This document shows positions 1,663-28,402 of a stretch of DNA of 64,000 nucleotides, piece after piece. The first letter of the stretch is position 1, and every line of letters begins with the position of its first letter. The notes under the pieces are model-generated. The model ran no database searches. It had not been told where the DNA came from and saw only the letters and a list, made by a program, of their open reading frames with translations. Source of the DNA: Ensifer sp. LC163 (lineage in GTDB: Bacteria; Pseudomonadota; Alphaproteobacteria; Rhizobiales; Rhizobiaceae); NCBI RefSeq assembly GCF_001695855.1, contig NZ_MBSS01000001.1:248001-312000 (forward strand). Reading direction: 5' to 3'. Made by a program: the position numbers and the translations under genes.

Positions 1663-1764
1663 TACAGCGCCGCGCGTCAAATATGACGCGCAAAGGACGC
1701 TGTAACGCTTTAAACTTGCTGCATAATTTTATCCTTAAATCGGATCCGATTTAAGGAATTATGC
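1663..1764 (+). repeat. RIME-like two-palindrome repeat, copy A (full)
   Basis: Palindrome P1 (1663-1704; arms TACAGCG/CGCTGTA, inner GCGCGTC/GACGCGC) is followed by P2 (1721-1764; arms GCATAATT/AATTATGC, core AAATCGGATCCGATTT). This is taken as the reference copy; '+' orientation means P1 then P2. It lies 8 bases after the ilvC stop codon. Length and two-palindrome layout match the known RIME family of rhizobia. Confidence 0.9.
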
Positions 1765-1772
1765 CGTAAGGC

Positions 1773-27043: not shown

Positions 27044-27741
27044 TTACCCCGCCTGCGCCAGCGCCGGCTCGAAGCCGATCTCGTCAACGGTTCCCACCAG
27101 TATGATCTCGTCGCCGAGCGACCATTCGGCCGCCCGCGCCGCCATGCGCGCCGGCACTCTTTCCGAGCCGCCCGGCCCCGGCGGCACATCATAGGTGGCG
27201 TGCGCATCATGGGCGAGGATCACCTTACAGCGCCGCGCGTCAAATATGACGCGCAAAGGACGCTGTAACGCTTTAAACTTGCTGCATAATTTTATCCTTA
27301 AATCGGATCCGATTTAAGGAATTATGCAGTAAAGCCGATATCCATCACCCGGCGCGCCGTTGCCGCCAGGCACATTTCCGACAGCATGCCGCAGATCGCG
27401 AGGGTTTCGACCCTGTGCCTCCTCAGTTGCGCCTCGAGATCGGTGCCGTCAAAGCCATCGTCGACAGACTTGCGCACGACCGTTTCACCGGGCCTTGCAT
27501 CGAAGAACAGCTGCCAGCCGTCCGTGCCCGGCTCATCCGGGGTGCCCTCGGGCGCGTCGTTCTGCAGGAACAAGACGGGGGCTTCCCTCTCCCGCGCCCG
27601 CTCCAGCAGCCGACCGACGGCCCGCTGCAGCGACAGGTGATCCGGCACCGCATCCCCGCCCGAGATGAAGGCGCGCTGCACATCGACGACCAAAAGCGCC
27701 TGCGCCAGTTTGACGTCGTTCTCGCTCACCGCCTCAATCAT
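27044..27741 (-). pseudogene. Isochorismatase-family hydrolase gene split by a RIME-like insertion
   Basis: The 5' part (27741-27330) encodes the start of a cysteine hydrolase with the whole catalytic triad: D20 (LLVVDVQRAF), K91 (VRKSVDDGF), C124 (GMLSEMCLAATARR). After MDIGF the frame enters repeat copy G and stops two codons later (TA then TAA, from the repeat). Beyond the repeat the missing C-terminus resumes as VILAHDAHATYDVP...AEWSLGDEIILV, ending at 27044. Joined, the two parts make a normal-length family member. The 5' end overlaps the Lrp stop (ATGA), so the pair was an operon. A restart on a TTG inside the repeat is possible but has no clear ribosome site. Confidence 0.85.
27226..27329 (+). 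repeat. RIME-like repeat copy G (full), inside a coding sequence
   Basis: Practically identical to copy A: P1 27226-27267, P2 about 27282-27327, arms GCATAATT/AATTATGC. It interrupts the isochorismatase gene between the codons for GF and the resumed VILAHD. Near identity to copy A suggests recent movement or gene conversion. Confidence 0.92.
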
Positions 27742-28202
27742 TCCGCATAATCGACCGGCACCGCCGTGCCGCTCTTCAGGATTTCCATCGAGATCGAAGC
27801 GGAAACGTCGAAGAGCTCCACCTTGCGCACGATCTGCTTGTAGACCACATCGTAATGCTCGACCCGCGGCAACACGACCTTGACGATATAGTCGTAGTTT
27901 CCGGTCAGTCGGTGCGCCTCGACAATCTCGGGAATGTCGCTGATCGCCCGCCGGAAGGTCTCGATCCACTCGTCGGAGTGATGCGCAGTCTTGATCATCG
28001 CGAACACGGTGGTCGGCACGCCCATGCGCTCGCGGTCGAGAACGACGATGCGCTTGGCGATATAGCCCGCCTCCTCCAGCCGCTGGATGCGGCGCGAACA
28101 GGCGGAAAGCGAAAGGTTCACCCGGTCGGCAAGTTCGCCGACCGCCATGCTCCCATCCTGCTGCAACAGCGCCAAAAGCTTCCTGTCACGCTCATCCAGC
28201 AC
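27738..28202 (-). CDS. Lrp/AsnC family transcriptional regulator
   Basis: 154 residues from GTG 28202, which has GGGAG eight bases upstream; a longer frame exists but exceeds the family length. Winged helix (about 1-60: LDERDRKLLALLQQDGSMAVGELADRV..., SACSRRIQRLEEAGYI) and RAM ligand domain follow. Its stop overlaps the ATG of the isochorismatase gene (ATGA), implying translational coupling. The divergent neighbour is aspartate racemase at 28403, a probable target. Confidence 0.9.
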   Translation of the reverse strand: MLDERDRKLLALLQQDGSMAVGELADRVNLSLSACSRRIQRLEEAGYIAKRIVVLDRERMGVPTTVFAMIKTAHHSDEWIETFRRAISDIPEIVEAHRLTGNYDYIVKVVLPRVEHYDVVYKQIVRKVELFDVSASISMEILKSGTAVPVDYAE

Positions 28203-28402
28203 GCTCACCACTCCCACTTCATCGATATGCCACGCTGCATGTTTGCATAACATTGCTCTCCAGCGCAATTGGATCGCGTCAAAATACCGTCCTCGCGCCA
28301 TCAAAGCGAACCATTGCCGATGAAGGTCCGGCATAGTGTCCGCATCGAACAACAGCTGGCCGCATCTCGATGCGGATGGCGACAGGATCAGGGAAACAGA
28401 CG

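Follow-up and report, generated by a model that had tools for sequence, protein, structure and literature searches.

The RIME1-like element within an isochorismatase-family hydrolase gene of this Ensifer is very probably a TA-targeting MITE that inserted recently, on this organism's own branch, into a TA of the gene, duplicating the TA and breaking the gene. The label RIME1 for this 102-bp element is our assumption. In the mechanism we propose, an IS630/Tc1-mariner-family transposase would move the element in trans, and the element would land on a TA within the hydrolase gene with duplication of that TA; the TAA carried by the element ends the hydrolase frame early. TA-duplicating transposition is far better supported than the assignment to a transposase family.

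Anatomy of the interrupted locus

The window, i.e. the whole stretch of 64,000 nucleotides analyzed here, comes from contig C1 of an Ensifer genome of 6.5 Mb. An isochorismatase-family gene on its minus strand, extending from 27741 to 27044, holds the RIME1-like element inside it. An earlier note on this DNA had proposed such an element within a single hydrolase gene, nearly identical to a copy designated A, and this is borne out: copy A (1663..1768 on the plus strand, counted from TA to TA) is identical to the hydrolase copy at 105 of 106 positions. The limits proposed there, 27226-27329, placed the element correctly but take in one of the two flanking TAs; empty-site comparisons refine the element to 27228..27329 (plus strand), with the left and right copies of a 2-bp target duplication at 27226..27227 and 27330..27331. 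The element has two palindromes (27226-27267 and 27282-27329), which are kept by paired changes; it has copies elsewhere and is absent at this place in the two relatives G013 and G014.

The insertion lies between the codons for MDIGF and VILAHD, where the note had placed it, as is evident from the open reading frames and flank alignments. The 5' fragment (27322..27741, minus strand; 139 aa) reads from the ATG at 27741 to the TAA at 27322, and its protein ends in MDIGF followed by T, A and the stop. The hydrolase itself contributes the first 137 residues, and the element encodes the final two along with the stop; it does therefore supply the early stop attributed to it. This fragment matches the Pfam family PF00857 (E 3.8e-24, profile positions 2-140 of 175), which is also matched by the intact hydrolase of the relative. 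It keeps D20, K91 and C124, all three of which are invariant in 15 aligned sequences, and which presumably have the catalytic-triad roles of an isochorismatase-like cysteine hydrolase. The 3' fragment (27044..27225, minus strand), recognized from its reading frame and its alignment to intact relatives, encodes 59 residues from VILAHD to AQAG and the stop, in keeping with the roughly 60 residues thought to have been cut off. An ORF of 70 aa (27044-27256) is open from a TTG in the element into this 3' part, and searched alone it matches no Pfam family. Upstream lies an Lrp/AsnC-type regulator gene (27738..28214, minus strand, from the ORFs and a Pfam search; the longest ORF starts at 28352), whose stop at 27740-27738 overlaps the hydrolase ATG as ATGA, the coupling that the note had described.

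The 64-kb window contains thirteen further full or partial RIME copies, at 2831, 11197, 14755, 17415, 19976, 34183, 36993, 46851, 52047, 52295, 59505, 62173 and 63697.

The element as a structured repeat family

Searched with a profile built from the first copies, 712 kb of the contig contain 79 copies, of which 62 are near-full (a profile match starting at or before position 4 and ending at or after 103). As these 62 near-full copies recur in 712 kb, a chance match is excluded for the hydrolase element, and the latter is approximately 99% identical to other copies of the same genome. The same profile finds 55 copies (36 near-full) in 720 kb of G014 and 7 (4 near-full) in 57 kb of G013. In the proposed fold, 36 pairs form 4 helices, and in the 59 distinct rows (out of 60) 95.3% of the cells are paired; both partners have changed in 14 pairs, where shuffling gives a mean of 4.2, and slid structures score worse, figures to be read with the structure having been hand-written from the first aligned sequence, which favors it, and with the copies being mutually related. 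In a blastn search 349 plasmid records match the element, 330 of them over at least 80% of its TA-to-TA length, and 342 of the 349 belong to Rhizobium, Sinorhizobium, Agrobacterium or Ensifer. The Rfam family RF02600 (Brucella sRNA CI27) matches the minus strand of the window at 27217-27339 with 41.5 bits, which does not reach the cut-off of 59.8; the Brucella sRNA annotated as RF02600 may share a repeat family with the RIME-like element. At C1:169713-169815 and 227312-227416, RIME copies are nested within another, apparently repeated intergenic sequence (AAGTGCGAAGCGGTTTTCCG...).

Empty sites in related genomes

The closest genome, G013 (apparently Ensifer adhaerens SD006), has ATCAC-ACTA-AAGCC at the place of ATCAC-CTTA-(102 bp)-TAAAGCC in the window. 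The net gain in the window is thus the 102-bp element plus one TA, and the frame of G013 runs through. In both G013 and G014 the hydrolase is a single ORF across the insertion point, to whose C-terminus the 3' segment of the window aligns, and each flank can be aligned up to the TA, to within one base of its element-side end. The note had regarded the locus as a snapshot of mobility, and the relatives agree with this: the gene of G013 is whole and lacks exactly the element and one TA, which identifies the target duplication as TA. G014 has CTGG at the exact site, with no TA, and the target TA was either gained on the branch shared with G013 or lost in G014.

Across 15 congeners, nine align unbroken over the site to an intact protein, and five yield no hydrolase match within the 1.5-kb flanks beside the regulator gene, these flanks alone having been searched. 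In the remaining one, Ensifer sp. LC11 (G007; L034, L054), a gap interrupts the hydrolase between residues 131 and 162; this strain has damaged the same gene independently. The element is absent from the hydrolase site in all ten congeners in which the gene is detectable, which is at odds with relatives generally carrying two separate genes around a repeat, and the downstream part aligns to its orthologues as an isochorismatase C-terminus should. In a wider set of 24 homologous loci, 21 have an ORF passing through the insertion point into the HATYD motif; of the other three, L054 is frameshifted nearby, L073 passes the point and then diverges, and L074 is a remote relative. Since the hydrolase gene is missing beside the regulator in five of the 15 congeners and gapped in one, it looks accessory, and it looks to have been damaged more than once. 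The comparison is one between species, with one genome for each.

Target-site duplication and target preference

TA is present at the left end of 51 of the 62 near-full copies of this genome, at the right end of 45 and at both ends of 42, against a background in which TA makes up 1.6% of dinucleotide positions; the other 20 copies have no TA at one or both ends. In the 42 copies with TA at both ends, the subset on which the target preference was computed, the base just outside the TA is a pyrimidine (C or T) in 41 cases on the left and a purine (G or A) in 40 cases on the right. Y-TA-R describes the target of 39 of the 42 and CTAG that of 22, as compared to 1057 Y-TA-R and 197 CTAG among 11121 background TA sites of this DNA. 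The base composition of the flanks reveals nothing shared beyond Y-TA-R.

Clean empty sites, taken as those in which each flank aligns to a point no more than 14 bases from the element and the net difference is at most 8, were obtained against G014 for 12 of the 62 own copies, 4 of which also gave one against G013, and against the own contig for 9 of the 36 G014 copies. A single 2-bp target copy accounts exactly for the length in 10 of the 12, in all 4 and in 6 of the 9, amounting to 16 of 21 distinct copies; in the other five, which lie in diverged sequence, the length deviates by 1 to 3 bases. By our reading, TA itself is still recognizable at 9 of the 21 empty sites, with, for example, CA, AA or CG elsewhere. 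Perfect examples are the own copies at 370054 and 169713 (versus G014) and 307505 (versus G013). The own copy at 227312 is matched to a distant location in G014 by way of another repeat, a pairing that is probably paralogous and not clearly orthologous.

These observations bear on other ways in which the locus could have arisen. Cut-and-paste elements can excise, some precisely or nearly so, and an element ancestral to the site could have been removed from the relatives with restoration of the frame. However, this would need repeated precise losses, given the nine of 15 unbroken congeners and the 21 of 24 wider loci that run through, and an ancestral element is hard to reconcile with the approximately 99% identity of the window copy to the other copies of the genome; we consider such a history extremely improbable. 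Movement of the repeat by homologous recombination, gene conversion or template switching, for which 79 copies in 712 kb would offer ample material able to recombine, is very unlikely when the flanks share nothing beyond Y-TA-R, the ends are sharp and most empty sites fit a single 2-bp copy. We give hardly any credence to a repeat misplaced between reads by the assembler: short repeats can collapse in assembly, but one of 102 bp is shorter than ordinary reads, the sequence to either side is collinear with G013 and G014, and misassembly is not expected to give a precise TA duplication. Insertion of the element by TA-duplicating transposition thus remains the preferred reading.

A candidate transposase family

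The TA duplication and the preference for CTAG are traits of the IS630/Tc1-mariner group, and the element is therefore likely to be an IS630-type MITE. The IS630 family inserts into TA and duplicates it, according to PMC2170065, and a preference for TA within 5'-CTAG-3' is given in the title of Tenzen and Ohtsubo 1991, cited there. With the likeness of the ends being partial, we infer that the transposase probably belongs to this family. The 90 best-scoring PF13358 loci of the order yielded candidate terminal repeats in 49, several of them probably due to chance, and 23 of the 49 begin with TAGAGC. The RIME ends are TACAGCG on the left and TACTGCA on the right; the left is partly like TAGAGCG, and the right fits poorly. 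A scan of these best-scoring 90 loci for RIME ends and TA-flanked repeats recovered no autonomous IS with both RIME ends, and the three PF13358 matches of the own genome, which lie together on contig C37, do not show them either. The features to be sought in a partner are IS630-family ends matching CAGCGCCGCG... and CTGCATAATT... beside TA.

L085, one of the three PF13358 loci of the own genome, offered a weak TACAGCA/TACGGCA candidate (14 of 24 matching), which was taken as chance, and L132 and L144 were set aside as partners since their matches are separate palindromes beside the IS. These single RIME-like palindromes, which begin with TAGAGCG and lie near IS630-family genes, are found at L132:3313-3355, L132:2431-2469 and L144:2950; TAGAGCGCCGTGCGTT occurs at L132:3313 and L144:2950, its first seven bases being common to many candidate IS630 ends.

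Consequences for the hydrolase

A structure predicted for the intact protein of G013 (mean pLDDT 89) places a strand (138-147), a helix (163-173) and two short strands beyond the break, and the lost part includes the nearly invariant HATYD and AEW-LGD region. Judged from this model, the 139-aa fragment should be incomplete in its α/β fold and would not be expected to fold normally, and the truncated gene is probably a recent pseudogene. We infer that the broken gene makes no active enzyme now.

In the 5' part the own branch has 10 synonymous and 9 nonsynonymous changes as against 8 and 3 on that of G013, and in the 3' part 3 and 0 as against 4 and 1; comparing the own branch with G013, there is no significant excess of nonsynonymous change that would indicate relaxed selection. 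The case for loss of function hence rests on anatomy, because sequence drift shows no decay yet, and the insignificant drift is as expected of a recent insertion. The hydrolase might alternatively still work, as a functional 139-aa form, by reassembly of its parts or through reinitiation at the TTG of the element. In line with this, neither fragment contains another stop, nonsynonymous changes are absent from the 3' fragment on the own branch and the 70-aa ORF leads from the element into the 3' part. We nevertheless regard it as unlikely, given that truncation removes a core strand together with nearly invariant residues of the C-terminus and that the gene seems accessory, with no match beside the regulator in five of 15 congeners and an internal gap in one. 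Inactivation of the gene by the inserted element is thus the reading that we favor.

Insertions relative to genes

RIMEs had been characterized in the note as intergenic, which holds for most copies, 51 of the 62 near-full ones overlapping no predicted gene, but not for the hydrolase copy, which is inside a gene. The 51, obtained with approximate predictions from a home-made hexamer scorer, include a copy that splits a GGDEF gene, whose pieces the predictor left unjoined. Split genes were sought by requiring both flanks of a copy to match adjoining parts of one predicted protein, using the 62 own copies against the proteins of the G014 and G013 stretches and the 36 G014 copies against the own proteins, a test that misses genes having no counterpart in the compared stretches. 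Two interrupted genes were detected, both in the own genome, namely the hydrolase (between residues 137 and 138) and the GGDEF gene. The latter is split by the RIME at C1:327108-327212 (L145:15108-15212), 52 kb from the hydrolase copy, a few residues ahead of its GGEEF motif and between residues 163 and 164 of the uninterrupted 294-aa protein of G014. The hydrolase copy is not, therefore, the sole coding insertion.

Three further copies lie at stop codons: C1:40147, 229949 and 526069 (L095:147-252, L104:9949-10054 and L155:14069-14173, respectively). The G014 stops at these places coincide with the start of the element-coded tails YSAARHI (40147), YSAARQI (229949) and YCIIP (526069). At C1:110708 the element sits a few codons past the relative's stop. 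Among 875 Y-TA-R sites outside RIMEs, 285 fall inside predicted genes and 92 in stop codons. Interior insertions are strongly depleted (2 of 62 versus 33% expected), and those in stop codons are not clearly so (3 of 62 versus 10.5% expected). Both interior copies are among the 12 whose sites are empty in G014, and 2 of 12 is not a significant depletion. With these small numbers and approximate gene calls, the pattern is consistent with insertion that is blind to genes and purging afterwards. We tentatively entertain the broader possibility that RIME1 is an IS630-type MITE family, recently mobile in Ensifer, that edits proteins both by splitting genes and by landing in stop codons, where it would add C-terminal tails and thus create new C-termini by transposition.

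Relationship to known repeats and implications

RIME1, the Rhizobium-specific intergenic mosaic element, was reportedly described by Osteras, Stanley and Finan in 1995, so that RIMEs are said to have been known for about thirty years. RIME1 is about 105-108 bp long with two large palindromes, and its type locus lies between chvI and pckA. No RIME match was found in 30 pckA loci of another Rhizobiaceae genus, among which the type species was not recognized. The element studied here is like RIME1 in its length of about 105 bp, its two palindromes, its multicopy and mostly intergenic occurrence and its presence on plasmids of Rhizobium, Sinorhizobium, Ensifer and Agrobacterium. It differs in that the hydrolase copy is within a coding gene, though an intergenic position is a habit of the family and not a matter of sequence identity, and in comparison to the RIME1 description the TA duplication and the Y-TA-R target are measured here.

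The IS630/Tc1-mariner MITEs and the TA-type small repeats RUP, ERIC and Correia/NEMIS insert at TA. Our element resembles these MITEs and small repeats in having no transposase gene, a size of tens to about 100 bases, a TA duplication and a CTAG-type target, but no parent IS with matching ends was found for it and its two ends (TACAGCG and TACTGCA) are only weakly alike. Rickettsia palindromic elements insert in coding genes and stay in frame, whereas the hydrolase RIME copy truncates its gene. MITEPsy1 of Pseudomonas syringae, as described in PMC3189936, is 100 nt long, uses CTAG or YTAA as its insertion site and has also turned up within a coding gene; by that description, on which the likeness is based, it differs in duplicating 4 nt and in being tied to another IS. 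The Bru-RS repeats of Brucella (103-105 bp, palindromic and intergenic according to PMC2267715) resemble the element, again by description, in length, palindromes and their related host genus.

Later rhizobial surveys (PMC2573895) list RIMEs as repeats of unknown function. No account of RIME mobility was recognized in the literature searched, which cannot show that none is published. With the hydrolase element, a known repeat family gains one more copy, unusually placed, and what this analysis adds is the exact duplication, the target rule, the second split gene, the stop-codon insertions and the candidate transposase family. The exact empty/filled pair, together with about twenty more empty sites, provides the ends of the element, its duplication and its target rule. 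These footprints point to one transposase family, making mobility directly testable, and they suggest how the old RIME family spreads. Rhizobial genes annotated as short or extended may result from RIME insertions.
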